Shown: positions 3,936 through 56,300 of the stretch, piece after piece | Numbering within the stretch: the stretch's first letter is position 1 | How the letters are laid out: the number at the start of each line of letters is the position of its first letter | NCBI GenBank assembly: GCA_900095095.1 | Contig: FMBT01000296.1 | Coordinates: 670,904 to 734,903, forward strand | Source of the DNA: Fragilariopsis cylindrus CCMP1102 | Taxonomy: Eukaryota > Bacillariophyta > Bacillariophyceae > Bacillariales > Bacillariaceae | Reading direction: 5' to 3' | Length of the DNA stretch: 64,000 bases | Position numbers and translations under genes: made by a program | Notes under the pieces: generated by a model | Told to the model about the DNA's origin: nothing | Databases searched by the model: none | Seen by the model: only the letters and a program-made list of their open reading frames with translations

Positions 3936-6441
3936 TTAATATTCCCGAATCATTGTCTTTACCTTTGAAATCATAACGTAATTTATTAGGTCGACTACGT
4001 TAACTCTGACGTTGATATCGTCTTTACTATCGAAAGGACTATCAATGTCAAGTACCGAAAACAGTGTTGAAAGGTCGGTGTCGCTTAGTTCGGGCTTGCC
4101 GAGATAGTTTAGGGCTGCGTTTAGCTCTCGGATATAGATACATTCCCTCTGCTCTGAATTGACAAAATCTACGAACTTTGATATTTTCTTTCGTATTCCT
4201 TTCAATTCTACCGAAAGCAGACAGAATTTAACCCATTCTTGTGGCCCGATACTGCCATCTTTCTCTATATCCTAGAAGTGTGTATTATAATATGTAAAAT
4301 AAAACAAAAAGCAATCTAGTAAGTAGCCGATATCAATCGATGCTATTGCGAAAGCGGAGAGCGGTATCTCTTACCATAATTCTTAAAACAAGAGTGATAA
4401 AACGGATACCACGTCTGCTGTGTAAACCATTCTCCTGTAGCACGTATTGAAATGTTTCAATAGACATTGATCCACTCTCGGCGGTATCAATTGCCTCAAA
4501 GATTCTAGGTGCTGCATCCAATACCCATTTAGGATCGTTTCGTTGGTTCTTGTTAGAGACAATTTTCCTTCTTGAAAAGAAATTACCGGTAATAAACCTT
4601 TGTTTTGAAAGTCCACAATCCGAAGCAGATTCACAAGTCGCTTTGGTTACGACTTCTGTGTCGGTCTCGAGTGTTTCCTCGTCACTTAAGTTATTTACGC
4701 TATTTAAGTTGGAGCGATGCCTAGTTTCTTCTAGTTCGTCTTTGATGCGTACATCTCCAAAGTGTTTCTGGAGGAAATCATGTGCGTTGTCGGGGTAGAG
4801 AGCGTCCTTGAGAAGGTAAAATCCTTCGTGCAAACAGCGGACTTTTTTGAGATGATCCTCTGGAACGGTTATGCTGGAAAGTGGTACCGCGATCAGAGAT
4901 GAGGTTCCCTGAATGACGATGAAGGGCATGGCGGCAAAACAAAAGGGTAGCGTCATAAAAGGTATTCCATATGGCTGTAATAATGTAGTAAGTGATTGCT
5001 GTAATATGACCGTCATGGACCCAGCTAGTATTGACACAGTAAATACAGTTCTTGATGGTGTGTAGAACATGAACATCGCGATCACCGTTAGACACGAGTT
5101 GAACCCAAACAGTCCACTTTCGACTTGTGCACATGGTACTCCAATCATCACACCAACAGCAGAACCAATAATAGATCCAAAGAGTGCTCCCATGGCACTG
5201 ATACGAGAGCATATTGATATTCCTGTTAGTACTAATGCACCAGAGACAATATTGTCGGCGAGAAAAATCTGGCCTATACCTCGGATACAACCTGCAAAGA
5301 ATCCTTGAATCGTAATCGTAACGTCGAAATCCAGATCCACACCGCTTTCATTATGTACACCTACTACTGCTGTCTTGACTCTTTCCATGTTAACGGTGGC
5401 TAGCATATATATTACGACGCTTACGTTGAAAGGAAGGGTAAAAGGTGGCGTTTTGTATGGGTGTAACAATTTACCCATAAAGACAAACAAGATCGAAGAA
5501 AAGCATGAAAATACAATAGTTGAAATAAGTATTGCTGGAGAGAAGCCTCGATATTTTTCTTCGTCGGGATTGTCGAACGTTGCTATTGCGAGACCGCACA
5601 GAACGCTATTGTATCCGAATAGACCAGATCTTTTGAGTCCTTTTTCAAAACCCAGCAGATATGCAATTATTGTACCTGACACAGTACCAATAACACCATG
5701 TACTGCTACTCGGTCTGATTGAATGAAGAGAGCGATCAAAATGAACAGCCCAGTTATTGGATTATTTTGAAAGACAACTATAGATGTGGTTGTTAGATAA
5801 CGTAAACATGAAGCATTCATAAATTGAAAAACTCAGGTGTACGATTCTCCTGATTAATACTAACCTTGTCCGATACCACGTAAGCATAATTCAACAAACA
5901 CAAAGAACTCTGGAAATGGTACTCGCTTCATAATAAACTCTTGAGACCATGGGATTGTTCCATTTGATAATTTGATAACCTTGTAGATATGATCCAAGAA
6001 GGAGAATGAAGACTTGTCCATCTCCTGTTCCTTCTCATTCGAATTTACATGATGACGTTCAAAGTAAATCGAAAATAGACGTGCAATACTGTCTTTGATT
6101 TTATTATCAAGATTTTTCACCACGTTGACATCGGCTCCCTCTTCGATGCTGTAAATATCATGAATGTCATCATCATCGTCATCATCATCCCGATCGTATC
6201 CGAGCTGCTCGTGGTAGTGCGAAAAAACAGTGCTGTGTTGACGAGTTCGAGATGATTGTTCGGGAACCTCTTTCCTTCGATTCAGATGAGTTGTTGAAAT
6301 TACTGACGCATCAGGTTCTTGGGAATACGACAATTTTCTCGCATGCTTTCCACTTGCAAGTTCATATGTTTTCCAAACTCGGACCTCTTCGACGGGCATG
6401 GTAGGTAAATTAGAAAGTAAGTCGTACAGGATCGAATACAT
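3936..6441 (-). CDS. Urea transporter (UT/SLC14-type) with C-terminal EF-hand region
   Basis: Three exons fit: 6441-5865, 5777-4375 and 4271-3936 (771 residues). Introns are 87 bp (5864-5778) and 103 bp (4374-4272), both GT-AG. The first join restores the family motif GIGQVVFQNNP, which is good evidence for that splice. Residues of about 180-520 form the UT-type channel: ten or so hydrophobic segments, with the pseudo-twofold repeat visible as LFGYNSVLCGLA and LFGFNSCLTVIAM, plus two Thr-Leu-Pro-Phe motifs. UT proteins form a passive urea pore in membranes. The N-terminal 180 residues are mostly unique and include an Asp8 run. The C-terminal 150 residues hold a canonical EF-hand loop, DIEKDGSIGPQE, created exactly at the second splice, flanked by two degenerate ones (DTAESGSMSIET; DIDSPFDSKDD). 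Calcium control of urea flux is an inference. Earlier 5' exons cannot be excluded. Confidence 0.85.
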
Positions 6442-12017: not shown

Positions 12018-15000
12018 ATGATCCGCCGATTACCACTAATGAGTGTACTTGTCGTCGTATTGGTATCTTTAATGAGGATGCCTACTACTGTCGCTGCTGC
12101 AGCTGCAACAACCATTAAAGAAGAAACTACTCAAGTAGAAGGACTGGTGATCGATCAAAACCCATCATCATCATCAGCTGGATGGTTACGAAAAAGTATC
12201 CTCAACATCTTTACCACCACCTCCACGAATCAAGAAGAAGAAGAAGTTACAGCAGCAGCAGCAGCAGCAGCAGTAGTTGTAGAAAATGAAGACTTTTTTG
12301 AATACCGGTATGACGAATTATTGTTAGGGTCATCATGCCAAGATGATGAAACATATCGTTATGAAAATGATCCACTGAAGGATTGTATGACATGGGTATC
12401 ATTAAAGCCAAACAAACGGTGTAGTAGGAATGCAGGTGTTGTCTTCATCTTCGATAAGGATAATGATAACAACAACGATGACAGTGATGGTAGTAGTGAC
12501 ACTGCTACTACTACAAGCACTACGAGTACGAGTACGAGTACCAGTACTGCTGACGAAGATATTGCTAAGAATAAGATGGAAGTTACAATCAAATTCTTTT
12601 GTCCATCTGTCTGTGATAGTAAGTGCCTTGATTCTGGTAATGAAAACGAAAATGATGATAAGGATGATAAGGATCATCCTCACAATGAATCTGAAAATGA
12701 AAATGAAAATGAAACTGAACAAGAAAAACAACTTGAACGCGAACAACAACGTGATTTACGATCATGGAGTTGGGGTAGTAGTAGTGCTGGTGCTGGTTCA
12801 TCGTCATCATCAGCAAATCCAAGAGTTTCTAGTAGTGGTGGTGGTGGTAGTAGTAATGGTTGTGGTAATTCTTATTTAAGTAGAATATTCTGTAATCCCC
12901 GAGCACCACCACCACCATCGCCACAATTTAGACCAGCTAATAATCGTCGACCACGAAGACCAGTACTAGTACCAGTACCAGTAAATATTGTCAGTAATAA
13001 CGGTAACGGTAGATATAGTTTTAGTTCTGGTAGAGTGAATGGATTTGGTAGAGGTATAAATAGTGCTCGTAATCAAGGCAATCAAGTATATCTGGTTGAA
13101 AAACCATCCACACCATGGACGGGAATGTATCAAACTATTATATATGTCCCGACCAATCGTCCAGTATCCGCTGCTGGTATTATTGCTATTGCTGAAACTG
13201 AAGAAGCTGCTGCTGCACAAGCACCAACTGCACCAGTTGCACCAACAACACCGAGACCATCAGTAAGTAGTAAATGAAAAAAAAAATGATTGTGCAAAAT
13301 GTGTAAATTTGTAAATTCCATTCTATTCTATTCCAAACACCAACACAAACAAGAACAATAACGGTACCAAAATCTAACTATTCTGTTTTCTTTTTATCTT
13401 TGCATTTTGTTATACTGTACTGTACTGTACTTTATACCATATTATTATTAGAGAGAACCAACACCACGTCCAACATCAGATCCCACACGAAGTCCAACAC
13501 CACGTCCAAGTGCACCCCCAACACCACGTCCAACACCAAATCCAACACGAAGTCCAACAAAACGTCCAACTGAAAATCCAACACGAAGTCCAACACCACG
13601 TCCAACATCAAGGTAAGTTGTTCAGATCTTATAAAATAAATGATAAATATGTCATAATTTTTACACGCATCACATACAAACTAAATACACTTCCATTATT
13701 TTTGTACTCCATTTTTTTATTTTTTATGTTACTTCATCATCATCATCATCATACAACATCATCATTGTAATTAATTCATTCATTGATTCATTCATTCATA
13801 GACCATCTCGAGCACCAACTAGACGGTAAGTATTTTCCGTTTCTATTTTAGTTAATATACACAACACCTATACGAACGATAACCGGGTACAATAAAGAAG
13901 AGGATATTATTATCTGTACTCTTAATATTTATATTTCTCACTCATTTCATTCAATTTTTTTCTCCGTTGCTTCTATTACACCGCATTCATAATAAACAAA
14001 CACATACCAAAAAAAATACATAAACATAACAGCCCAACAAGAAATCCTACTCGACGACCGACCAGTAGACCAACAGAACGACCAACAGTAAGCTAATATC
14101 AGCAGTCCTATCATATCATACGAATTGAACGAATTAAAGAAACAATGAATGATTATTATATTTTTGTTTGTTTGTTTGTACAGTAAATCAATTACTTTTT
14201 CGCTTTCTTTTTTGTTTCTTCCTAAACTTATTCTAACTTATTTTTGCTATAATTTATTTCTATTCATTCCTTTGATTTGTTTTGTTTTTCTTAGCGACGA
14301 CCGACAAGACAACCAACCCGGAGACCCACTGTAAGCTAGCTCTAAGCGGTTGATAACGAACTAAATCATAATTCACAGAGATAAAATCATATCATTGATC
14401 TCTGCAGTATATTATTGTCTTTGATTCTTGTCATTTATCAATATCTTTTCTGACTAACAAGACTTTTCTCTTAAAACAACATTTCTTTGCATAATATTCT
14501 TTCCTTTTGTAGTCTGGACCCACCCAGTCACCAACTGTACGTCAAAATTTGTGATCTCTTCTACTGTAACTGAATTATAACGTTCTACTTTAATATTTTT
14601 CATTCCTAACATTATTTGCAATTTTTTTTACTCTTCTTTTCCTTACCACAGCCACGACCAACAAGAGCGTAAGCATTTTATTCACCGCACGCATCTTGAT
14701 TCACTTGATTGTTTGATCAGCATTTGATCGTTTGGTGAATAAAGTATATATCTTGTCCTAATAATGGTCATCTCCGTACCTCACAAAACTTTCTTTCAAT
14801 TTTTTTCATGTTTGTCAATCGAATTAAAATAAATAACAGTCCGACAACAGCACCTACGCCAGCGTAAGCCTTATTTATGATTTCGATTGATTGGTCAATA
14901 GTTTCGTTCCCAAATGATCCCAGCTCACTTTTTCTCTCTCTCGTTTGTCAATTGAATTAAAAATAAATAATAGTCCGACACGAGTTCCTACGCCAGCGTA

Positions 15001-15307
15001 AGCCTTATTTATGACTTCGATTGATTTCTTTCTTTCTTTCCAAAAATTTACCCAGCTCACATTTTTTTTCCTTACACACACACACACACATATGCATAGT
15101 CCTACTCCTGGTGTAGCTAGTGCTGTTCCAAGTGCTGGTCCGAGCCTTAGTGCTGCTCCTAGTCGGGATCCGAGTAGCAACCCTAGTGAATCACCAAGTA
15201 CTTTACCTAGCTCTGCTCCTAGTCGGGATCCGAGTAGCAACCCGAGTGCTGTCCCAAGTTCGGAACCTAGTTCTATTCCTAGTGCTATGCCCAGTAACAG
15301 CCCATGA
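12018..15307 (+). CDS. Secreted Cys-domain / Pro-Thr / Pro-Ser repeat protein, paralog 1
   Basis: Ten exons fit with consistent phase: 12018-13262, 13452-13612, 13802-13825, 14033-14087, 14295-14330, 14513-14536, 14652-14668, 14840-14863, 14974-14997 and 15100-15307 (605 residues). All introns are GT-AG, mostly GTAAG donors. A signal peptide (LMSVLVVVLVSLMRMPTTVAA) starts the protein. Six cysteines follow between residues of about 107 and 205: [22 protein letters not shown], then FFCPSVCDSKC, an ShK-like spacing interrupted by an acidic insert. Then come a Ser/Gly linker with [11 protein letters not shown] and a block YLVEKPSTPWTGMYQ, both conserved in the next two genes. Exons 2-9 code almost only Pro-Thr repeats; exon 10 codes Pro-Ser-x-x-Pro-Ser. 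Such tails are typical of extracellular, probably O-glycosylated wall proteins. Function is unknown. Failure to splice intron 1 would add three codons and stop. Confidence 0.75.
14811..15078 (+). repeat. Tandem duplication of one microexon with its introns
   Basis: Exons 8 and 9 of paralog 1 (14840 and 14974) are 134 bp apart. Both the exons (CCGACA...CCTACGCCAGC) and the flanking intron DNA (ttgtcaat[c/t]gaattaaa before, gtaagccttatttatga[t/c]ttcgattgatt after) are nearly the same. This is a direct copy of an exon-plus-intron unit. Confidence 0.8.
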
Positions 15308-16681
15308 GAAGAAGAAAAACAAAGTACATGTACAATCCTGCTAACAACGTCATCATACGTAATAACCAAAAAAATCAGTGTTGTTGATGATGATGATGTT
15401 GTTCTCGTCTAATAATGTTAATATTTATCTGTCCAACAAATTAAGCTCGTACAGATGCTCTACAATAGTTTTTAACCAAGTTCAAACGATCTTATTATAT
15501 TACTAACAACAATACACGCTACATACAAAGAAACATATCCACAGCTTTTCAGTTAGATTGGGCCTTTCTCGTTTACCTCTTCATTGTTCCTCCATTTTTT
15601 GTGAAGGGCACGCGTAAGTGTCAGCTCATACTTTCTTGTTGTTCGTAGAAGTGGTATGAACGACCTTTACAAGTCCGTTGTCGGCATGTTAATGATTTCG
15701 CCGATCTACTGTACTCTAGATGCATGATTGGACTGCCATTATTAAAGCAAGAATAAAAGATTTCCTTTCGCCACCAGATATGGCATGCATGATAGTACAC
15801 CAACAGCTTGCCATCTTATAGTTAGATTGTTTGGGCCTTTCCCCGTTTAGTACACCGATGTTCTTCGTTGTTCCTTCATTTTTTGATAGTAGCGCGTGAC
15901 ATGAACGGACTTTTATGCCACGGTTACTTAGCATTTCTAGGTGAATTTATGGCTATTAGTAACGTTTAATTAACTTCCCACATAAAATAAGATCTAATTA
16001 ATCTTTAAATAAATAAAATTACTCAAAGTTATGGATATAGGTGTCTCATTATTTAGGTCTTGTACAATATTTCGATATTTGGATTTAGATTTTCGCTCTT
16101 TTTTTAGTTAAGCATCACATCATGACAGAAGCGAAGACTCGACTCAGCAATCAAGAATTTTACTGTACTAACACTTATACGTTAGAAATTTCTACAGAAG
16201 TAGTATTTCCTTCTCAGTTCTACAACATAAAACAAGTTCATTCAACGTAACACATCATATTCTCTCATATCTAATTGAATTGAATTGAATTGAATTGAAT
16301 TAAAGTCAAAATCAAAGTCAAAGTCAAAGTCAATCATAATCAAATTCAGAATCATTACTGTACGAATTGAATTGCTAAGCTATTCTTCTTGTTCTTTCTT
16401 TCCGCAAATCTCAAAGTCAGCGCGACGCATCCCTTTTTCCTTTTTTTGAGACACCAAGTTTTTTTCTTAGACGAAAAGGAAGGAACACGAAGAAAGTCAC
16501 CACACGTAGACTCAAGATAAATCTCCCGCCCTGCCTCATCCTACTGCTACTGCTACTACTACTGCTACTGCTACTGCTACTGTAATAGGACCTAGTTTAT
16601 CATCATCGCACAAAACATCCGTCCCATTCTATTCATTCATTCATACATACATACATACATACATACATACATGCATACATC
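15308..16681. other. Intergenic, duplicated upstream region
   Basis: Contains the second copy of the upstream segment (15763-16060, compare 11091-11410) and a partial third copy near 15540-15670 (agttagattgggcctttctcg). Also (GAATT)n at 16275-16300, CTGCTA repeats at 16542-16581 and a CATA repeat ending one base before the next ATG. No gene. Confidence 0.5.
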
Positions 16682-18985
16682 ATGATCCGCCAATTATTAC
16701 TAAGTGGACTCGTCGTATTAGTATCTTTAATGATGATGCCTACTAATACTGTCGCTGCAACAACAACAACATCCATTGTAGGAGAAACTACTCAAGGAGT
16801 GGTCGATCAAGAGCAAGAACAGCAAAAGAAGAAGAATGGTCAACACCCGCCATCATCAGCTGGACGGTTACGAAACAGTAGCAGTAACAGCAATAATATC
16901 CTGAACATCATCGCTACCACCACCACCACCACCACCACCACCACGAATCAAGAAGAAAAGATTGATCATGAAGACTTGTTTCTTGAATATTTTAGAAACG
17001 AATTAGCATGTCAGGATGATAAAGCATATCGTTATGAAAATGATCCACTGAAGGATTGTATAACATGGGTATCATTAAGACCAAACAAACGGTGTAGTAT
17101 GAATTCAGGTGTAGTCTTCATCTTCGATGACATTGACGACAACGATGACAGCGACGGTAGTATTGTCGGCGGTAGTAGTGACGATAGTATTAGTGACACT
17201 GCTACTACGAGTACGCGTACTACTACAAGTACTACTGACGGAGAAGGAGACGCAGACGGAGACGGAGACGGAGAATATTTTAATAAGAATAAGATGGAAG
17301 TTACAATCAAATTCTTTTGTCCATCTGTTTGTAACAGTAAGTGCCTTGATTTCGGTGATAATGAAAATGTTGATGAGGATAAGGATAAGGATGAGGATAA
17401 GGATAAGGATCACACTGATTATGAAAATGAAAATGAATCATTATTTTTAAAACAAGAACAGCAACAACAAGGACAAGAAAAACAACTTGAACGCGAACAA
17501 CAACGTGATTTACGATCATGGAGTTGGGGTAGTAGTAGTGCTGGGGGTGATTCATCATCATCAACATCAACAAATCGTGTGAGTTATAGCAATACTGGTA
17601 ATTCCTATTTAAGTAAAATATTTGGTAATAATAATAAAGCACCACCACCTCAACGACGATCACCACCGCGATATACAATAGTTAATAATCGAGGACCAAG
17701 ACCAAGGCCAAGACCAGTACAACAAGTATATTATGTAGACAAACCCAGGACATCATGGACAGGAATGTATCAAACTGTTGTTTATGTACCGTCCAATAAT
17801 CGTCCTGCTACTATTGTTACTGTTATTGACGAGACTGCTAGCAATATTCTTCCTCCTGTTGGAATACCACCTACTAGACGACCAACTGTATCTATTGCAC
17901 CAGTTGCACCAACAACACCTCGTCCATCAGTAAGTTATAAAAAAATAAACGACTGTACAAAATGTATGAACTGTAAATTCCATTCAATTCTACTCCAAAC
18001 AATATGAAACACAAACACAGGAACCATAACAATACCAAAATCTAACTATTCTGTTTTCTTCTTCTTTGCATTTTTGATACACTATACACTGTCAAACTTA
18101 TTATATTATATAATATTAAATCATTGCTATAATAGAGAGAACCAACACCACGTCCAACATCAGATCCAACACGAAGTCCAACACCACGTCCAACTGCACC
18201 CCCAACACCACGTCCAACAACAAATCCAACACGAAGTCCAACAAAACGTCCAACACAAAGGCCTACACCACGCCCAACACCACGGCCTACACAAAGACCA
18301 ACACCACGTCCAACACCAAATCCAACAAGAAGGCCAACACCACGTCCAACACCAAATCCAACAAGAAGGCCAACACCACGTCCAACACCAAATCCAACAA
18401 GACGGTAGGTATACAGTTTAAAGTCTACAGTATATAGTACGATTTGTGTTTGTGTATGCGTGTATGTACAGTATGTAGAATCGATGATTGTATCATATCT
18501 CTATCACAATATTATCTCCTACAAAAAAAAAATTATCAGATTTTGTACTCTTTATTTTTTATCTTACACCGTCATTCAATTATTCATTCACTCATTCATA
18601 GACCAACTCAAACACCGAGTAGACGGTAAGTATTTTCCATTTTCCATTTTGTTTGTTTAGTTTGGTTGTATAATAAACACCGATACGAACGATATGATCA
18701 ATTACAGAGGATCCGTTTTTTGTCACTTTCAATACGATACTTTTTCTCACTCGTTACATTCTATTTTTTCTTTTGCTTCTATTACACCACAATCTTGAAC
18801 AAATACAAATGCAAATACAAATACAAATACAAAAACAAATGCAAAAACAAATGCAAAAACATAACAGCCCAACAAGAAGTCCTACTCGACGACCGACCCG
18901 TAGTCCTACAAACAATCCAACAGCACGTCCGACAAGACGTCCGACAAGACCTCCGACAAAAACTCCTACAAAAACTCCTACATAA
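16682..18985 (+). CDS. Secreted Cys-domain / Pro-Thr repeat protein, paralog 2
   Basis: Four exons fit: 16682-17929, 18136-18404, 18602-18625 and 18868-18985 (552 residues). The signal peptide, the six-cysteine region ([28 protein letters not shown]) with an acidic insert, and the [11 protein letters not shown] and [15 protein letters not shown] blocks all match paralog 1 closely. Exon 2 is longer than in its neighbours (269 nt) because a short Pro-Thr unit ([12 protein letters not shown]) is repeated three times. Exon 3 has the same length (24 nt) and phase as in the other paralogs. Exon 4 ends in [10 protein letters not shown] and a stop, so this copy lacks the downstream string of microexons and the Pro-Ser exon of paralogs 1 and 3. 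It may be a natural short form or a 3' truncation. Start chosen because the signal peptide aligns with paralog 1. Confidence 0.75.
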
Positions 18986-20536
18986 GCTGCTGCTCAACTG
19001 AATTAATTATTTGAAAGAACAAGAATTCACGCCGCATTATACGACACATGTCCACTTCCACTTCCACATCTTCAGGATATATCTATATCTATATCTATTA
19101 TATGTAATCCTCTGCACGTAAAAAATAAGTCACAACAGAATAAATAAGCCACCACAGTCATTTAGTATTTAGTATTTAGTATTTGTGGCAATTGTAACAG
19201 TTCGATTAACTTTCATATATACGCAATAAATAAAATCTATAATTACCCTCTATTAATGTCATATACTGTACTGTATGAAAGGTCTCATAATTGTTTAGGA
19301 ATGTTATATCAAATAGCTAACTACTACTAGTAGAGGAAAGCTGTTCCTACGCAATGTAGCGTTTTCTAAATACGTTAGTGATAAAAGACGTCGACGTTAA
19401 GTATTAAAAAAGAGAATACAATTCTGTAATTCGTTTTTTCTTTCATGAATATGAATATGAATATGATGACGATGATGATATGTGTCATAGTCCTAGATAT
19501 GTAAGATGATGATGATTGTTTACAGTCATTGTATCTTGTAGTGATTCCTTCTCCATTTTGGTTCTTTTAATAAAGCGATTGATTCGATTCTTCGATGATT
19601 GATTCCTTCATTTCAATGATGAGTGATCGACCATAATTGTGCGTGTCGCTACTATAAAATGTACAGTACAGTACTGTATACTTCCGAAATTGCAATTTAA
19701 ATGATATTACTAGCAATTTGTGAGGAGGCAAATTATTTTTAGTTTTTTCATGCGCGAGAAAATAAAGCGGCGGCTTGAAAAAGTTTAAGGCAATGTTAAT
19801 TCACGTAAATTAATTCGCCTAAATAATGGTAATTAATTTTGTTGCTTGGTCAAAAAAATGACTCACTCAGTCCTCGTCACCGCGGGGTTCGCCTTTTTTT
19901 ATACCATAATAATAATATAAATCATGTCAATTAAGTATATATCAATACTTCAAGTAATTATGACTTTACATCATAATATTCAGATCTTTGGATCAATATT
20001 GCCTTTTTTCTTTTTTGTATGCTACTAACTGTTAGACTATTAGAATTTAAAAAAAAAACCCAACAAGGGACATTCCGCCATAAGAATTTATTGCTGAGCG
20101 AAGAATGATCACAAGAACAAAGCTACACTACAACAATATGCATCATTTCGAATGAATGAAGGAATCGAATCGAAAAATCAATAACATATATCACTTGCAG
20201 TTCACGACTATACAGAGATAACTTTTCAGCTTATACTATTTCATCAATAGGGAAGTGAATCTTCAGCCAACTTCAGTTCAGTTCAGTTACTTATCGAATC
20301 AATCAATATATCACAGTAATACGCTACAAGACTAATAAACAGGAATAACCTTTGCAACTTATTATTTTATCAACAGCTGAGTGTGTCAAGATCCTTATTG
20401 GCCAACACAACATTTATTTCAGTTCAGTTCAGTTTTAACGTATAATAAAACGTCCTACTGTATTATAATTCTATCCTGTCCTATAAACGAATTTATACTC
20501 AAATTCAAGCCAGTCAAAAGTCAAGTCTTCAACAAC
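18986..20536. other. Intergenic between paralogs 2 and 3
   Basis: AT-rich with simple repeats (TATATC at about 19078-19100, TTTAGTA at 19163-19184) and a GTACAGTACAGTACTGTATA word at 19661-19680. A weak echo of the shared upstream segment (ggtctcataattgtttagg near 19281) is present. No gene seen. Confidence 0.4.
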
Positions 20537-23500
20537 ATGATTCGACACTACAGTAAGATCAGCAGTAGGAGTAGTAGTAGCAGCTGTAAACAAAGGAGTA
20601 GTAGACGAAGGATACGACAGTCTATCGTTCCATTCGGAATTTTATTGGTCGGACTATTATTCGTTCTCGTCTCGTTGCTGATAACGTTACCCTCCGCTGT
20701 TGTTGTCGCCACCGCCACCGCCACTACAACCGGAGAAGAAGAAGGAGAACAGCGGGTATTACTTTCTTCTTCTGAAGGTCATCAAGTTGTATTTGATGAT
20801 GAGCAGCAGAAGACGACGAGGGATCAACTACGACAGCATAATTATTCATCATCAGCTCGACGACGACGTTTATTACGAAACAGAAATAACAAAAACAGTA
20901 GAGAACGTAATAATTATGCAGATAATAATGATAATGATAATGATGATGATATTATATATGGCGAGGACGACAAAGTCATTGATGATGAAGATTATGATTT
21001 TGGTTGTGATGAGATTATTATGGATGAATCTGAATCTGAATCGTCATTAGAAGAAAGAGGAGAAGCAGAAGAACAACGCAATTTACGATCATGGAGTTGG
21101 AGTAGTAGTAGTGCTGGTGCTGGTTCATCCTCATCATCAACAACAACAAATCGTGTTAGTAATAGCAACACTGGTAATTCCTTTTTAAGTAGAATATTTG
21201 GAAATAGCAATCGCCGACCATCAAGAACAGTGCCTACTGCCAGTAATAATAATGGCAGTACTAGTAGATATAGTTTTAATTCTGGTAGTAGAGTTGGTGG
21301 TGGATTTGGTAGTGGTATAGGAAATAATAATAATAATAATAATAATCAAGGTAGTAGCAATCAACAAATATATTATGTCGAAAAACCAAGAAGATCATGG
21401 ACGGGGATGTATCAAAATATTATCTATGAACCATCGAATAATCGTCAATCATCATCATCTAGTACATCTTCTGGTGCTGGAAATATTGCTGCCGGAGAGG
21501 GAAATCCTCGTGCTTCAATACCACTGATTCCTACTACACCACCACCAACTTTTGCACCAACAGTGTCTAATAGGCCAACAGTAAGTACATGCATACAGTA
21601 AAAAGGAATTGAATTCCATTCCATTCCATTCCAAGCAAAATGTACAAATACAACAAGAACAAAATCGAACTAGTCTTTTTTTTCTTCTCGTTTGATTTCA
21701 TTGCCTTTTTCTCTTCCTTTTCTATTTTTGTTGCTTTGATGAACTTAACTATCTATCATATTTTCCTTTCTTGCAATATATTATAGAGAACACCAACATC
21801 AAGACCAACACCAAAACCTTCCAGATCACCCACTCCTCGTCCTACTAAAGTACCGACGCAACGTCCAACGAAACGTCCTACTCGAGAACCGACACTACGT
21901 CCAACGAAACGTCCAACACAACGTCCAACACCAAAGTGAGTTGAGTTATTAATATTAATATTGTACAGTAGTGCATTGACAAGTATTGAATTGAATGCAT
22001 TGAAATTATATTTGAGATCAGATTTTACAGTAGTACAGGTATTCGTTTGTTTGTTGCATGATCTCGAAAAGAAAAGTAAATTGAACTGAATTGAATTGAA
22101 TTGGATTGGATTGAATTGAATTGAATACTCTAGTCCGAAGAGAAAAAAAGAAAGCGAATTTATCCATCATCATTTGTCGTGTTCAGTTCCGTTCCGTTCG
22201 TCATCACACGAATGAAGACTGTTGCTTCATTCGATGAATGAATCGAATCAAAATAATTCTTCTTTTCTTTCTATTATTTCTCATGCAAAACACCTCTCTC
22301 TCTCTCTCTTTATCCCCCCCCCCCCCCCCTTCTTCCTCATCGTCACCATCGTTATTAATCATTAGACCATCCCGTGAACCTACAAGACGGTGAGTATTTT
22401 TAGTTTAGTTTAAACACCTACGATGCATGATCGATTACTGAAAAAGATCCGTAATGAAAGAATTCTTCAGTCAGAAGTACTCACTCACTCGTTACATTAC
22501 ATTTTCTGCTTCTATACACCACAAATCTTCTACAAAACAAAAACAAAACAAAACAGCCCAACAAGACGTCCTACTCGACAACCGACCCCTCGTCCTACAC
22601 CAAGTCCAACAAACCGACCGTCTGTAAGTAATAATAGAGCAGAACCAACATACCAATTAATTGTTCATCCAAATTAGTTGTATAAGTGTATGATTAACCT
22701 CAATATCATTTGCTTTGTCATTAATATATATATATATATATTCGTGTCTAATAATTTCATTCTTTCTGGCTTCTGTGTACATTTTTCTTCTTCTTCTTTG
22801 TTTCTTCTTCTCAGCCGCGGCCTACAAATTCTCCAACACCACGACCAACAGTAAGCAGCAGTCATATGAATTGAATGATCAATATATTATATATATCATT
22901 ACTATTTTTTGTACAGTAACTAAACTTATTATTCGCTTTCTTTTCTATTTAACTTATCCTGGCGAATCTGTTTCTATTCTTTTGACCTCTTCTGTTTTGT
23001 TTTGTTTTTTAGCGACGACCGACAACGCAACCAAGTCGTCGACCCACTGTAAGCAGTTACTATAGAACTACATTGCACTTCAAAAACATAAATCATACGA
23101 TTGATCTCTATCGTCTGTTGTCATTTACATCCTTTCTGACTTATGATCATTTCTCTTAAAAACCTTTTCTGCGTAATATTTTTCCTTTGTAGCGACAACC
23201 CACAGAACCTCCAACGCGGGTACCAACTGTACGTAATTAGAAACAAACATATGTATATGGTTCATCGATTCAAATGTATGATAGCTGTTTCTTTTTCTAA
23301 ATAATAACTGTCTAACGATGTATCTCTTTTTTCCTTAAACATACTATTTGATCTTATAATTGTTTCCCCTACCACAGCAAGCACCAACATCATCGTAAGT
23401 GAATATTCACCTTCATTCACTGGATCGTTCGATCGATATGTGTCGTGTTTTAAAAATGCATCACTAACTCACAAACTATTTGTTCATTCTTCGTAACCAA

Positions 23501-24197
23501 ACGATTGATAAATACTCATAATAGTCCAACAAATCCTCCTACAAGCGCTCCTAGTTCGGAGCCAAGCGAGCTTCAAAGTGTTGTTCCTAGTTCTGTACCA
23601 AGTGCTGATACCAGTTCGTTGCCCAGTACTGTTCCTAGTGTTGATCCGAGTTCGTTGTCCAGTGCTGTACCCAGTGCTGTACCCAGTGCTGATACCAGTT
23701 CCATTCCAAGTCTCGAACCAAGTGTTGGTTCGAGTTCGTCGTCCAGTGTTGATACCAGTTCGTTGTCTAGTGTTGTAACCAGTGCTGATACCAGTTCCAT
23801 TCCAAGTCTCGAACCAAGTGTTGGTCCGAGTGGCGCACCCAGTTCCATTCCTAGTTCGGAACCGAGTCTATTGCCCAGTGCTGTACCCAGCATAAGTGTT
23901 GCACCAAGCACAAGTGTTGTACCCAGTGCTGTACCCACCAGAACTGCTACACCTAGCGTAAGCGCTGTACCTAGCACCATTCCTAGTCTCAAGCCAAGTA
24001 ATTTTCCGAGTGCTTTACCTAGCTCTGTTCCAAGTCCTGATTCGAGTGGCGCATCCAGTTCCGTCTCGAGTGAGTTATCTAGTTCCAGTGGCAGTGGCAG
24101 TGGTACTTCTACTGGTACTACCAGTAGTTCTGGTGAAGGTTCTGGTCAAAGTTCTAGTGATGGTAGTTCTACTGGAACTGGATCGTCTTCTAGCTAA
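20537..24197 (+). CDS. Secreted Pro-Thr / Pro-Ser repeat protein, paralog 3 (Cys domain lost)
   Basis: Nine exons fit: 20537-21580, 21787-21935, 22366-22389, 22557-22623, 22815-22850, 23013-23048, 23193-23228, 23378-23394 and 23525-24197 (693 residues). The ATG at 20537 is preferred because MIR starts all three paralogs; a basic stretch precedes the hydrophobic signal anchor (FGILLVGLLFVLVSLLITL). The linker blocks LRSWSWSSSSAGAG and YYVEKPRRSWTGMYQ are kept, but the six-cysteine domain is absent: only one cysteine (GCDEI) remains where it should be. Exon lengths and phases mirror paralog 1 (24, then 36, then 17 nt with the same phases). One extra 36-nt exon (22815-22850) is present, and one 24-nt exon is replaced by 36 nt. 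The last exon codes about 225 residues of Pro-Ser-x-x-Pro-Ser, ending in Ser/Gly/Thr. Confidence 0.75.
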
Positions 24198-31558: not shown

Positions 31559-34015
31559 ACATTTGCGTGCCTACCTCCAACAGCAGAATCAACTTTACTC
31601 TTCAACCACAAGAACAAAAAAGTGGTAGGATGGTAAGACAAGATTCTCATACACTATGTGGAGGTTACTGCACCCAACCAAAGGAAAGTTTTCCTTTGGA
31701 ACCATTTTGAATAAGAATTTCCGTGGTGCATTTTGCTCCAAAATATGACTATTTGCGTGCGGTGCATACCTCTCTCACCAAAATCAAGTTTTGTCTTCAA
31801 CAGCAGGAACAAAAAGCAGTAGGAGGTTAAGACAAGATGCTCATACACTATGCGGAGGCTACTGCAGCCAACCAAAAGAAAGTTCTCCTTTGGAAACATT
31901 TTGATTAAGAGATTTTGTGGTGCATTTTGCTCAAAAATATGACCATTTGCTGTGCATACCTCCAACAGCAAAATCAAGTTTTCTCTTCAACCGCAAAAAC
32001 AAAAAAGTGGTAGGAGGGTAACATCTCATACACTATATGGATGTTAGTGCACCTGACTCATCCGGTGTTGTCCTCTGCAACTCTTTCAAATGAAATATTT
32101 TGTTGTGTGTACACATACATCAAAAATATGACTATTTGCGTGCCTACCTACAACACCAAAACCAAGTTTTCTCTTCAACTGCAGGAACAAAAAAGTAGAA
32201 GGAGGGTAAGACAAGGTTCTCATACACTATGTGGAGGCTAATGCACCCAACCAAAAGAAAGTTCTCTGTTGGAACCATTTTGAATAAGAGATTTTGTGGT
32301 GCATTTTGCTCAAAATATAACCATTTGCGTGCCTACCTACAACACCAAAATCAAGTTTTCTCTTCAACAGCAGAAACAAAAAAGTAGTAGGAGGTTAAGA
32401 CAAGATGCTCATACACTATGCGGAGGCTACTGCAGCCAACCAAAAGAAAGTTCTCCTTTGGAAACATTTTGATTAAGAGATTTTGTGGTGCATTTTGCTC
32501 AAAAATATGACCATTTGCTGTGCATACCTCCAACAGCAAAAAATCAAGTTTTCTCTTCAACTGCAAAAACAAAAAAGTGGTAGGAGGGTAACATCTCACA
32601 CACTATATGGATGTTAGTGCACCTGACTCATCCGGTGTTGTCCTCTGCAACTCTTTCAAATGAAATATTTTGTTGTGTGTACACATACATCAAAAATATG
32701 ACTATTTGCGTGCCTACCTACAACACCAAAACCAAGTTTTCTCTTCAACTACAGGAACAAAAAAGTAGTAGGAGGGTAAGACAAGGTTCTCATACACCAT
32801 GTGGAGGCTTATGAACCCAACCAAAAGAAAGTTCTCTGTTGGAACCATTTTGAATAAGAGATTTTGTGGTGCATTTTGCTCAAAAATATGACCATTTGCT
32901 GTGCATACTGTCACATACCTCCAACAGCAAAATCAAGTTTTCTCTTCAACCGCAAGAACAAAAAAGTGGTAGGAGGGTAACATCTCACACACTATATGGA
33001 TGTTAGTGCACCTGACTCATCCGGTGTTGTCCTCTGCAACTCTTTCAAATGAAATATTTTGCTGTGTGTACACATACATCAAAAATATGACTATTTGCGT
33101 GCCTACCTACAACACCAAAACCAAGTTTTCTCTTCAACTGCAGGAACAAAAAAGTAGTAGGAGGGTAAGACAAGGTTCTCATACACTATGTGGAGGCTAA
33201 TGCACCCAACCAAAAGAAAGTTCTCTGTTGGAACCATTTTGAATAAGAGATTTTGTGGTGCATTTTGCTCAAAAATATGACCATTTGCTGTGCATACCTC
33301 CAACAGCAAAATCAAGTTTTCTCTTCAACCGCAAGAACAAAAAAGTGGTAGGAGGCAACTAAAATGTTCTAGTACACCATGTGGAGGCTTATGAACCCAA
33401 CCAAACAAAAGTTCTCTGTTGGAACCATTTTGATTAAGAGATTTTGTGGTGCATTTTGCTCAGAATATAACCATTTGCGTGCATACCTCCAATAGCAAAA
33501 TCAAGTTTTCTCTTCAACAGCAGGAACAAAAAAGTGGTAGGAGGCAACTAAAATGTTCTAGTACACTATGCGGATGCTAGTGCACCTGACTCATCTAGTG
33601 CTGTCCTTTGTAACACTTTCAAATGAAATATTTTGTTGTGTGTACACATCTTAAATCCCCAAAATGTGTGCTGTGTGTGAGCCTACATTGTGAGATACCA
33701 GTGGACTTACAAAGACTAAGGAATATAACAATTCTCCAACCAATAAGTCAATTGTAAATTTAAAAGTTTATTTTTCCAAAAAAATGACATCTTAGGTGTA
33801 TATACTTGATGCTAAAGTTGATATTATATACTACACTAACAAATACTAGTAAAGTTTTTTTCGGGGGGATACGAATTTCATTACCCCCAAATGTATTTTT
33901 TATTTTGCCCCCCCCCCTCTTATGCTAAATTTCGGGGATAGTTAATTGACTTCTAGGGATTTGAAAGTTAGTACTGTAAATTAAAAACACACCTTCTAAT
34001 GAATTGCCCCCAAAC
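31559..34015 (-). repeat. Dispersed repeat family, copy B, with a 190-bp internal satellite
   Basis: The part at about 33640-34015 is the reverse complement of the left end of copies A and C. From 31559 to 33640 there are about eleven tandem units of 186-195 bp, seen from the spacing of TCATACACTATG-type words at 31647, 31840, 32026, 32219, 32409, 32595, 32790, 32985, 33179, 33371 and 33560. Two unit types alternate irregularly: one with CCAACCAAAAGAAAG and one with CCTGACTCATCCGG. This indicates higher-order duplication. Minus-strand frames (QNAPQNLLIKM, VGCSSLRIVYE) are open within a unit but do not form a longer protein. Confidence 0.75.
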
Positions 34016-41784: not shown

Positions 41785-41992
41785 GTGGTTCATCCAATTT
41801 TGTTTTGGTTCATCCAATTTTGTTTTGGTTCATCCAATTTTGTTTTGGTTCATCCAATTTTGTTTTGGTTCATCCAATTTTGTTTTGGTTCATCCAATTT
41901 TGTTTTGGTTCATCCAATTTTGTTTTGGTTCATCCAATTTTGTTTTGGTTCATCCAATTTTGTTTTGGTTCATCCAATTTTGTTTTGGTTCA
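41785..41992 (+). repeat. Minisatellite, ten perfect 20-bp units
   Basis: The unit CATCCAATTTTGTTTTGGTT is repeated ten times without change from 41791 to 41990. Because 20 is not a multiple of 3, all three forward frames stay open and cycle through the same 20 residues. These frames are by-products, not genes. Confidence 0.95.
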
Positions 41993-47817: not shown

Positions 47818-50608
47818 ACAGGCAACACCTTTAACTTTTAAATTTGGGGGTTTTCGTTAAAACTACTGTTTTTAATTAACTGTTTTTTAAATCCAAAAAA
47901 GTGTAACTGGATAATTAACAATATCGGGGGCCCCCAAATTAAAAATGCAATTTGGGGTAATAAAATTCGTACCCCCCCAAAAAAAAACTTTACTAGTATT
48001 TCTTAGTGTAGCATATAATAAAAACTTTAGCATCAAGTATATACACCTAGAAAGTCATTTTTTAAGAAAATCAAAGTATTAAATTTACAATTGAACTATT
48101 GGATGGAATACTGTTATATTCCTCAGTCTTGTTAGCCTACTGGTATCTCACAATGTAGACTCACACACAGCACACATCAGCTTTTTATGAGATATCTTGT
48201 TCTGGGCACAAAGCAGGGTAGAACTTCCAGGAAAATGCTTCTTTTTAGTCAGGGAGAGTTCCTCTACCTTACCATGTGTGTAACAAATATCGGTCTTAAA
48301 ATATATGGAAGGCACTCTTTCAATTCATGTTCACATACCTGTACGCTGACCAGCCTCTAACGCACCATCTTACTAGTTAATTTGATGGGGCTATTATTTT
48401 TGCTACAACAACTTTTTTTGGAAAATAAAATCATGGAACCCATTATATCCTTAATATTTATACGTATGCAAGACAGTGGGTACATCCAGGGGTTTACTTT
48501 CTTCGTCATGGAACAAAAACCAATAAATACCCTATTTTAGCTAAAATCCACTTAAAATAATTTTGCACGAGATGTAGCATATGAACCAGAGGCCCCAATG
48601 GTTCCGGCTTTAGCTGGGTTAGGTAACTATATGATTATTTGTGTGGAAATAGCTGTCAAACTTTGTTTTGGAGCATAAATCAGCCCACAGTGATTATTTT
48701 AAGTACGGTCCTTGACTGCATTTTATGAGATATTTTTGAAAACAGGGGTAAACTACAATTGCATCCAAAATAATGGTGGGTTGGGATGATGATGGTTTCT
48801 ATTCACAAGTTATATTGTATGAGGACCTTACCTAACCCTCCTACCACTTTTTTGTTCCTGCGGTGTAGAGTAAACTTGATTTTGGTGTGCGAGGTATGCA
48901 CACAAAAAATGGTCATATTTCTGAGCAAAATGCACCACAAAATCTCTTATTCAAAATGGTTCCAAAGAAGAACACTCTTTTGGTTGGGTGCAGTAGCCTC
49001 CACATAGTGTATGAGAACCTTGTGTTACCCTCCTACCACTTTTTTGGTCCTGCGGTTGAAGAGAAAAGTTGATGTTGCTGTTGGAGGTAGGCACGCAAAT
49101 AGTCATATTTTTGAGCAAAATGCACCACAAAATCTCTTATTCAAAATGGTTCCAAAGAAGAACACTCTTTTGGTTGGGTGCAGTAGCCTCCACATAGTGT
49201 ATGAGAACCTTGTGTTACCCTCCTACCACTTTTTTGGTCCTGCGGTTGAAGAGAAAAGTTGATGTCGCTGTTGGAGGTAGGCACAAAAACAACTGGGTGA
49301 ACAGAGATCCAGGTGTAGGTTGGTATGAAACACTAGACAGATTGAATGTGTTTCCCTCCTACCATTCCTGGTGGTTTATCATCACTTGACTAAAGTAATT
49401 CTGATTGGTATCATTTTTATCTCACAAATTCTCCAGTGGAGTTGGGTTATTGGAATATATTAAACAACTTTGAATAATAAGATAGAAGATGAATGACTTT
49501 TCCTTAGGTCAATAATAATATGAATAACTTCTCCTTAGGTTCCAGAACCAGCAAGGTGCACCAAAATACCACCCAGTCATCCATCTCATACCCATATGGG
49601 ATGAACCAAGGGTCATGATCCCTCATATTTACCTTCTTCTTGCCTCCAGAACACAAACATTGCATTTTGGCCAACATGTCATATTTCCATGCCCAAAAGT
49701 ACCATTCAGAAATAGGCTGCCACAACATCAAAAAAAATAGTTGGACCATGGTTTCAACACCCAGATACCTTCAATATATGCATATGGTCAAAATGCACCA
49801 ATAATGCATGAATCATTTGCCATATCGGTGGTGTAGTGGGACGGGGAACAATAGAATAGACATAAAATGGCTCAGAATGCACACACAGCAAAAATATCTG
49901 AGATGCTACAGCACCCATGCCAGGTATGCTGAGTCCCAAATAAAATAGCTAGACATCAACCTAATTCATAAAAAAATTGGATTATATCATTGCTTGAAGT
50001 TACCATGCATATATTTGGGGTGTCACGGGTCAAAATCCACTGCTATTAAAACACACAATTTCTCTAAGTGCCAAGTGCGCGTGTAATCAAGGCCGCGATG
50101 CACCATCAATACAGACCTAATAACCTTGAAAAATTACATGGAGCTCAACATTATACCTATGAGTACAAGGTCCAACTATTGCTTAGGGCTCTAGGGAGGT
50201 TAGGAAGGTGTCAGGGTGTACTAAGCCACAAAAAGGGTCATTTATGCCCCAAAACAGGTTTTCCCCCTTTAGCACCCACATCAGCATGGTCCTACCCATA
50301 GCTTGCCAAGTTTATATTCCCTTTGGTGTATATGGTCAACCCCATGTGCTTACTTTGGGACAATTCATATTTTCGAGTGTGTACTAGGTCACATACCCCC
50401 CCCCCCAAATGGGCCATTTTCCCATGTCCTAGGCTGCATCACACCCTTTACCACCTTCCAGTGTGAAGAAAGCATACCTAGCGCCCCAAAGTCTGGCCCA
50501 GGTATCCACTATACCATCTGATTGGGACTTTATACATGCTAGGATGGGTTAGAATGCCAGAAAGTTGAGTGGTACAGGTAGCAAGTACCACAGGACATGA
50601 CTTAGTTT
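47818..50608 (+). repeat. Dispersed repeat family, copy C
   Basis: The longest plus-strand copy. Its left end (GGCAACACCTTTAAC, then TTTGGGGGTTTTCG) matches copy A at 6835. The part at about 48180-48800 matches copy D at 62800-63430 (shared AAGCAGGGTAGAACTT and TTTTGCACGAG). The part at 48840-49290 holds two to three of the 190-bp satellite units known from copy B. The part at 49340-50608 matches copy A at 7550-8790. Minus-strand blocks MDDWVVFWCTLLVLEP and WQPISEWYFWAW are interrupted equivalents of copy A sequence, so a coding ancestor on that strand is possible. Confidence 0.75.
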
Positions 50609-53312: not shown

Positions 53313-56300
53313 TTAGACTGGAAATTGTACACTCAGAGGGCAAAAATCACATACATCACTACAGCAATCCCCAAAATTTACACATAAATCATCACAGTAA
53401 CAACTGAGACCAGAGTTTTGAAAACAGGTTTTATCCTTACAACTACCTTTAATAGATGCTTTTGGAGGATAGAAACAAGTGAAAGAAGAAGGTTCAAAAC
53501 TAGGCGGAAGACTTGGCATGAAGCTGGGTCTACTTGAGATGCTACTCGGATCAAAACTAGGAGAAGAGCTGGGAACACCACTTGGTGGAAGACTTGGTAA
53601 AGAACTTGGAACAGCACTGGGTGTAAGACTTGGCCCAAAACTAGGCAAACCACTAGGAACCTCACTTGGGATGGAACTTGGCAATTCACTTGGGATGCTA
53701 CTCGGATCAAAACTAGGAGAAGAGCTGGGAACACCACTTGGTGGAAGACTTGGTAAAGAACTTGGAACAGCACTGGGTGTAAGACTTGGCCCAAAACTAG
53801 GCAAACCACTAGGAACCTCACTTGGGATGGAACTTGGCAATTCACTTGGGATGCTACTCGGATCAAAACTAGGAGAAGAGCTGGGAACACCACTTGGTGG
53901 AAGACTTGGTAAAGAACTTGGAACAGCACTGGGTGTAAGACTTGGCCCAAAACTAGGCAAACCACTAGGAACCTCACTTGGGATGGAACTTGGCAATTCA
54001 CTTGGGATGCTACTCGGATCAAAACTAGGAGAAGAGCTGGGAACACCACTTGGTGGAAGACTTGGTAAAGAACTTGGAACAGCACTGGGTGTAAGACTTG
54101 GCCCAAAACTAGGCAAACCACTAGGAACCTCACTTGGGATGGAACTTGGCAATTCACTTGGGATGCTACTCGGATCAAAACTAGGAGAAGAGCTGGGAAC
54201 ACCACTTGGTGGAAGACTTGGTAAAGAACTTGGAACAGCACTGGGTGTAAGACTTGGCCCAAAACTAGGCAAACCACTAGGAACCTCACTTGGGATGGAA
54301 CTTGGCAATTCACTTGGGATGCTACTCGGATCAAAACTAGGAGAAGAGCTGGGAACACCACTTGGTGGAAGACTTGGTAAAGAACTTGGAACAGCACTGG
54401 GTGTAAGACTTGGCCCAAAACTAGGCAAACCACTAGGAACCTCACTTGGGATGGAACTTGGCAATTCACTTGGGATGCTACTCGGATCAAAACTAGGAGA
54501 AGAGCTGGGAACACCACTTGGTGGAAGACTTGGTAAAGAACTTGGAACAGCACTGGGTGTAAGACTTGGCCCAAAACTAGGCAAACCACTAGGAACCTCA
54601 CTTGGGATGGAACTTGGCAATTCACTTGGGATGCTACTCGGATCAAAAACTAGGAGAAGAGCTGGGAACACCACTTGGTGGAAGACTTGGTAAAGAACTT
54701 GGAACAGCACTGGGTGTAAGACTTGGCCCAAAACTAGGCAAACCACTAGGAACCTCACTTGGGATGGAACTTGGCAATTCACTTGGGATGCTACTCGGAT
54801 CAAAACTAGGAGAAGAGCTGGGAACACCACTTGGTGGAAGACTTGGTAAAGAACTTGGAACAGCACTGGGTGTAAGACTTGGCCCAAAACTAGGCAAACC
54901 ACTAGGAACCTCACTTGGGATGGAACTTGGCAATTCACTTGGGATGCTACTCGGATCAAAACTAGGAGAAGAGCTGGGAACACCACTTGGTGGAAGACTT
55001 GGTAAAGAACTTGGAACAGCACTGGGTGTAAGACTTGGCCCAAAACTAGGCAAACCACTAGGAACCTCACTTGGGATGGAACTTGGCAATTCACTTGGGA
55101 TGCTACTCGGATCAAAACTAGGAGAAGAGCTGGGAACACCACTTGGTGGAAGACTTGGTAAAGAACTTGGAACAGCACTGGGTGTAAGACTTGGCCCAAA
55201 ACTAGGCAAACCACTAGGAACCTCACTTGGGATGGAACTTGGCAATTCACTTGGGATGCTACTCGGATCAAAACTAGGAGAAGAGCTGGGAACACCACTT
55301 GGTGGAAGACTTGGTAAAGAACTTGGAACAGCACTGGGTGTAAGACTTGGCCCAAAACTAGGCAAACCACTAGGAACCTCACTTGGGATGGAACTTGGCA
55401 ATTCACTTGGGATGCTACTCGGATCAAAACTAGGAGAAGAGCTGGGAACACCACTTGGTGGAAGACTTGGTAAAGAACTTGGAACAGCACTGGGTGTAAG
55501 ACTTGGCCCAAAACTAGGCAAACCACTAGGAACCTCACTTGGGATGGAACTTGGCAATTCACTTGGGATGCTACTCGGATCAAAACTAGGAGAAGAGCTG
55601 GGAACACCACTTGGTGGAAGACTTGGTAAAGAACTTGGAACAGCACTGGGTGTAAGACTTGGCCCAAAACTAGGCAAACCACTAGGAACCTCACTTGGGA
55701 TGGAACTTGGCAATTCACTTGGGATGCTACTCGGATCAAAACTAGGAGAAGAGCTGGGAACACCACTTGGTGGAAGACTTGGTAAAGAACTTGGAACAGC
55801 ACTGGGTGTAAGACTTGGCCCAAAACTAGGCAAACCACTAGGAACCTCACTTGGGATGGAACTTGGCAATTCACTTGGGATGCTACTCGGATCAAAACTA
55901 GGAGAAGAGCTGGGAACACCACTTGGTGGAAGACTTGGTAAAGAACTTGGAACAGCACTGGGTGTAAGACTTGGCCCAAAACTAGGCAAACCACTAGGAA
56001 CCTCACTTGGGATGGAACTTGGCAATTCACTTGGGATGCTACTCGGATCAAAACTAGGAGAAGAGCTGGGAACACCACTTGGTGGAAGACTTGGTAAAGA
56101 ACTTGGAACAGCACTGGGTGTAAGACTTGGCCCAAAACTAGGCAAACCACTAGGAACCTCACTTGGGATGGAACTTGGCAATTCACTTGGGATGCTACTC
56201 GGATCAAAACTAGGAGAAGAGCTGGGAACACCACTTGGTGGAAGACTTGGTAAAGAACTTGGAACAGCACTGGGTGTAAGACTTGGCCCAAAACTAGGCA

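Follow-up and report, generated by a model that had tools for sequence, protein, structure and literature searches.

Predicted Pro-Thr stalks encoded partly in microexons, with introns at two repeat positions, in a tandem gene cluster of Fragilariopsis cylindrus

Three neighboring genes of the diatom Fragilariopsis cylindrus CCMP1102, here called A, B and C, encode Pro-Thr (PT) tails that are divided among exons as short as 17 nt, which raises the question of whether the length of these stalks is adjusted by splicing or is set by the DNA itself. The genes lie in a 64,000-nt stretch of genomic DNA that was analysed as a whole and is referred to as the window. An earlier note on this DNA had described three head-to-tail paralogs with tiny exons, and this was confirmed by the gene models (Table 1): all three genes are on the + strand, the cluster starts at 12018 and ends at 24197, as the note had placed it, and one intact frame per gene (605, 552 and 693 aa) runs through a total of 20 introns. 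All of these introns start with GT and end with AG (20/20), with the donors GTAAGT (8 introns), GTAAGC (7), GTACGT (2), GTGAGT (2) and GTAGGT (1). They are 102–430 nt long (median 185.5 nt), and the retention of any one of them leads to an in-frame stop within 37 codons (20/20). The run of microexons that had been ascribed to all three genes is present in A and C and missing from B, which has four exons with a single microexon. On the 3′ side of B, a comparison of 18868–20536 with 14088–15400 of A gave no match better than E 0.21, and, besides exon 4 (E 1.7e-13), a search for relics of the 3′ exons of C downstream of B gave a single match, with E 0.28. The gene structures of A, B and C are real and unusually regular.

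Table 1. Features of the A–C cluster, in positions of the window
Feature	Position	Strand	Description
Gene A	12018..15307	+	10 exons, 605 aa; open frame, GT..AG at 9/9 introns
Gene A exons	12018-13262, 13452-13612, 13802-13825, 14033-14087, 14295-14330, 14513-14536, 14652-14668, 14840-14863, 14974-14997, 15100-15307	+	Gene model; lengths 1245, 161, 24, 55, 36, 24, 17, 24, 24, 208 nt
Six-cysteine domain of A	12336..12626	+	ShK-like spacing; Cys3–Cys4 loop acidic and Ser/Thr-rich
PT-repeat exon array of A, exons 2-9	13452..14997	+	365 nt coding
A exon 4 3′ part with donor (14052-14095) vs exon 5 with donor (14295-14338)	14052..14338	+	75% identical over 44 nt
Tandem exon-intron unit copy, A exons 8 and 9	14826..15026	+	Two 67-nt copies, 91% identical, start-to-start 134 nt
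Gene B	16682..18985	+	4 exons, 552 aa
Gene B exons	16682-17929, 18136-18404, 18602-18625, 18868-18985	+	Lengths 1248, 269, 24, 118 nt
PT exons 2-3 of B	18136..18625	+	Gene model
Gene C	20537..24197	+	9 exons, 693 aa; gene model
Gene C exons	20537-21580, 21787-21935, 22366-22389, 22557-22623, 22815-22850, 23013-23048, 23193-23228, 23378-23394, 23525-24197	+	Gene model; lengths 1044, 149, 24, 67, 36, 36, 36, 17, 673 nt
PT-repeat exon array of C, exons 2-8	21787..23394	+	365 nt coding
C tail, PS-rich then Ser/Gly-rich	23525..24197	+	Last exon, gene model

As the earlier note had read them, the three proteins share a hydrophobic, signal-like N-terminus, the linker RSWSW and the block WTGMYQ. The top 19-mers for hydrophobicity start at residues 1, 7 and 10 in A, 1, 2 and 6 in B, and 30, 31 and 33 in C, in which ∼30 Ser/Arg-rich residues precede the hydrophobic segment. 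An RXL motif stands directly before RSWSW (RDL in A and B, RNL in C). RXL has been described as a potential cleavage site (PMC9650480) and as a canonical protease cleavage site, reported for SiMat7-like and all new KXXK proteins (PMC5501833). Further copies are found elsewhere in the proteins (one in A, one in B and three in C), so RXL can also occur by chance. KXXK motifs number two, zero and zero in A, B and C, and pentalysine clusters are absent from all three. The tails contain 33, 37 and 34 PT dipeptides and 21, 5 and 36 PS dipeptides (A, B and C, respectively), and the four-residue P-T/P-S spacing runs on across the introns. A hydrophobic C-terminal segment or anchor was sought in A, B and C and none was seen, so that the label ‘surface protein’ given to them in the note is not established.

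The remainder of the window contains other repeats. Very large PS-repeat frames (two frames of 2115 and 2094 aa) are located on the − strand at 53316–60927, where a 156-nt unit is repeated ∼35 times with 99% matches; the 53.3 kb end is Cys-rich, and a Lys/Ser-rich part with 54-nt repeats lies at 60.9–61.2 kb. A 189-nt satellite with 10.6 copies occupies 31560–33586, and a 190-nt array with 2.5 copies, the consensus of which looks by eye like the reverse complement of that satellite, occupies 48812–49289. A 20-nt unit is present in 10.4 copies with 100% matches at 41786–41992. A match to the urea transporter family (PF03253, E 4.6e-75) lies on the − strand at 4336–5832, and scans of the window with Rfam (gathering scores) and for bacterial-code tRNAs returned none.

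A and B contain a six-cysteine domain, with all six cysteines in the C..C..C..C...C..C spacing and Cys3 separated from Cys4 by a long loop, and this Cys-rich domain is absent from C. The exon-1 proteins had no Pfam match above cut-off; ShK (PF01549) was matched neither by the exon-1 proteins of A and B nor by the A domain alone. Elsewhere in the host genome, PF01549 gave 16 matches at E ≤0.001, none of them on the contig of the window. The best hit of a PDB sequence search with the Cys domain (E 0.057) was taken as chance. The same domain type occurs at many other places in the genome, often in tandem. A pattern scan of the sampled loci and the window returned 46 matches, of which 31 were aligned with A (its row shown with the loop removed for display) and 15 were kept out of the alignment, namely A, B, seven double-length matches, four that are apparently antisense to PT repeats and two on the other strand of the window. 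A large six-cysteine family with the pattern C..FRF..C..YVA.KP.KRC..FCPATC..C, often in tandem, was observed at surveyed loci L013–L038 and L062; one copy of it (from L024), scanned alone, had no Pfam match above cut-off.

The internal exons of 17, 24, 36, 55 and 67 nt encode PTxx repeats, which supports the modular PT tail proposed in the earlier note. The PTxx repeat unit is 12 nt long, and all introns (20/20) are located at only two of its 12 positions, ten at each: register 6, which lies after the T codon (phase 0), and register 11, which lies inside the fourth codon (phase 2). Registers were called from the four nearest P[TS] motifs, which agree 4/4 in 16 introns and 3/4 in the remaining 4. 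Because the introns use only two repeat positions, the lengths of all 17 internal exons are 0, 5 or 7 modulo 12: exons of type 0-0 or 2-2 have lengths divisible by 12, those of type 0-2 leave a remainder of 5 and internal 2-0 exons one of 7 (17/17). For the same reason, neither the reading frame nor the repeat register is disturbed when sequence between equal positions is duplicated or deleted. Under a uniform null with n independent intron positions, the chance of observing only two registers, calculated by hand as ∼66 × (1/6)^n, falls from 2e-4 at n = 7 to 7e-6 at n = 9; paralogy puts the true n below 20, and the uniform null is generous given splice-site needs. A and C each have exactly 365 nt of internal PT exon, partitioned differently; a constant stalk length in these two genes was considered and rejected, as the five length differences cancel exactly under 6 of the 32 possible choices of sign (hand count), which is not significant. 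The larger differences between the stalks of the paralogs lie in the number of repeats within exons, both in exon 2 (161, 269 and 149 nt in A, B and C) and in the last exon (208 nt in A versus 673 nt in C). Stalk length would differ among the paralogs because their DNA differs.

Analysis of intron similarity, judged against 200 shuffles within 20-nt blocks, indicated that five introns of A resemble introns of C (i1, i3, A i4/C i5, A i5/C i6 and A i7/C i8; P 0.000 to 0.010), and therefore at least five of the nine intron positions of A predate the A/C split. Introns i1, i2 and i3 are alike between A and B, as is i3 between B and C (P 0.000 to 0.010). No similarity above chance was detected for A i2/C i2, B i2/C i2, A i6/C i7, A i8/C i8 and A i9/C i8. 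Of the 15 pairs of neighboring introns in A and C, A i7/i8 and A i8/i9 are clearly alike, A i6/i7 is marginal (P 0.045) and 12 are not alike. One clear duplication of an exon-intron unit is present inside A (exons 8/9). In C, both introns flanking the extra 36-nt exon 5 resemble A i4, C i4 with P 0.045 and C i5 with P 0.000.

In one explanation of these arrays, the cell would skip combinations of symmetric microexons in a regulated manner to tune stalk length or glycosylation. The phases are compatible with this: as the earlier note had stated, most internal microexons start and end in the same phase and are hence frame-neutral (10/12 of those ≤36 nt, the other two being 17-nt 0-2 exons; 10/17 of all internal exons, with 5/8 in A, 1/2 in B and 4/7 in C), and 56/256 exon combinations in A and 26/128 in C keep the frame. 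In Phaeodactylum, ∼20% of gene models are reported to show exon skipping and ∼24% intron retention (PMC5859163), so skipping is possible in A–C, while nothing in the sequence calls for it. However, the combination counts are within those expected for random phases (P 0.066 in A and 0.155 in C), and so are the numbers of symmetric exons, both against uniform random phases (P = 0.086 for 5/8 in A and 0.17 for 4/7 in C) and when only phases 0 and 2 are permitted (P = 0.37 and 0.49). Selection for equal phases was rejected because the symmetry does not exceed that of random phases. If all symmetric exons were skipped, A and C would each lose 132 nt (44 aa), and B, with its single microexon, 24 nt (8 aa); the short introns and strong donors would suit constitutive recognition across introns. 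With symmetry within chance and at most 44 aa of A or C at stake, the splicing-driven stalk-length system suggested in the note is not borne out, and we regard regulated skipping as unlikely.

Repeat mechanics alone could also account for the arrays: introns would have been gained at the same target sites, the register would reflect splice-site needs, only A exons 8/9 would be duplicated and the partition would be functionless. The 12 unlike pairs of neighboring introns are in line with this, as is the sequence preceding the cuts (CA or CT at register 6; AG, CG, GC, AA or TC at register 11). The similarity of the end of A exon 4 to exon 5, donors included (Table 1), and the resemblance of A i4 to two introns of C speak against this view, and it too seems improbable. 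The genes could moreover be decaying or unexpressed, or their models partly wrong, for example in the last exon. B lacks a counterpart of the 3′ exons of A with no relic found, and dN/dS in exon 1 is moderately below 1 (0.71 for A-B, 0.49 for A-C and 0.40 for B-C, at dS of 0.34, 1.02 and 1.29); from RSWSW to the end of exon 1 it is 0.85, 0.58 and 0.68. Yet the three frames are intact over 20 introns, none of which breaks the repeat register, and the dN/dS of the Cys domain between A and B is 0.34, which makes decay or faulty models very improbable. We favor, with moderate confidence, a tandem family of diatom secreted PT-repeat proteins in which stalk length is set by the DNA and splicing is mainly constitutive. 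The genes would be expressed, and the secreted products would consist of the signal-like N-terminus, a Cys-rich head (in A and B only), RXL, RSWSW and WTGMYQ, followed by the stalk. The latter would be an extended, mucin-like PTxx/PSxx segment, probably O-glycosylated and, as we infer, situated in the cell wall, mucilage or extracellular matrix. It would be built and remodelled as whole 12-nt repeats and, in at least one case, a small exon-intron unit are duplicated, with phases presumably fixed by the repeat. Against this explanation, most neighboring introns within A and C are unlike each other, and introns may have arisen independently at recurring target sites.

The rarity of such arrays was assessed with a PT-exon finder (exons ≤120 nt with at least two P[TS] motifs and flanking splice sites; 17-nt exons are out of its reach). 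On the + strand of 12018–24197, it returned 13 candidates, of which 12 are modelled exons and the last is a nested variant of exon C7. No candidate came from the opposite strand of the cluster, from either strand of the remaining window or from 60 shuffles of the cluster that preserved dinucleotides (given strand). The genome searched comprises 67.9 Mb in 818 contigs. A survey of PT loci (among them 30 places from one search and five further stretches) covered 82 loci, of which 14 belong to the A–C cluster and the other 68 represent 46 distinct stretches (218.8 kb including overlaps). A PT/PS run of at least five units is present in 55 of these 68 loci. A flanked PT exon of ≤70 nt was found in 0/68, of ≤120 nt in one and of ≤400 nt in three, in a survey that is biased toward loci retrieved mostly with the Cys domain or with a long, unbroken PT query, with stretches mostly of 3–5 kb, and that would miss microexon-only loci, as at least two P[TS] motifs are needed per exon. 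In L058, L064 and L079, introns apparently divide the PT repeat into larger exons (95, 240, 125 and ∼150 nt). DNA searches with the microexon arrays of A and C, which score best candidates only, returned the A, B and C loci and one 20-nt match (E 0.44) inside C. A search for other WTGMYQ paralogs gave nine matches at E ≤10, four of them in A–C; the best of the other five (E 0.016) contains internal stops and was taken as chance. The silicon transporter family PF03842 had 27 matches in the host genome, all above cut-off; of 14 control genomes, one gave a weak signal and none was above cut-off.

Several known systems resemble parts of this architecture. In Thalassiosira pseudonana, XPT/SX repeats, RXL sites and a silicon response are described together in frustule-type proteins, and the function of the repeats is said to be little known (PMC5501833). 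Like these XPT/SX proteins, A–C have tetrapeptide P-T/S repeats, RXL and a hydrophobic N-terminal segment; unlike part of the published PT-repeat set, they have few KXXK motifs and no pentalysine cluster, and the available portion of that paper makes no mention of a PT repeat split into microexons as in A–C (PMC5501833). Mucin-like or large modular extracellular proteins such as CaFAP1 and diatom trail proteins (PMC11420354) are similar by description. Schistosoma MEGs (PMC5825161, PMC10526429) share with A–C secreted-type proteins, short symmetric exons and the organization as a gene family. In MEGs, as outlined in these sources, ∼80% of the coding region consists of 6–36 nt symmetric exons, and protein variants have been reported. 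A–C differ in that exons ≤36 nt form a small share of the coding sequence (149/1818 nt in A, 24/1659 in B and 149/2082 in C) and are placed in a simple repeat, and they fall outside the MEG definition given in PMC5825161, in which most of the coding region lies in such exons. Apart from this microexonic share, schistosome MEGs would be the nearest functional analogue of A–C. That the cluster is a diatom counterpart of MEGs, in which register-locked, frame-neutral PT microexons would be spliced combinatorially into graded glycoprotein stalks with the two boundary classes as compatible joints, is a speculative and doubtful extension of this likeness. In collagen genes, exon organization follows a 54-nt rule. 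As in collagen-type genes (PMC4838654), successive symmetric exons in A–C encode an extended repetitive protein, which differs from collagen in its 12-nt unit, its two cut positions and the unrelated protein. Among the literature matches listed, judged by titles and abstract openings, no report of PT microexon arrays in diatoms was found, and the only paper combining ‘microexon’ and ‘diatom’ concerns mouse synapses.

The cluster illustrates cleanly how intron positions can be constrained by a simple repeat in the encoded protein. As each 12-nt unit has two cut points, exons bounded by equal cut points can be gained or lost with no effect on frame or register. A, B and C also provide a compact and well-delimited system for studying the splicing of microexons in diatoms.
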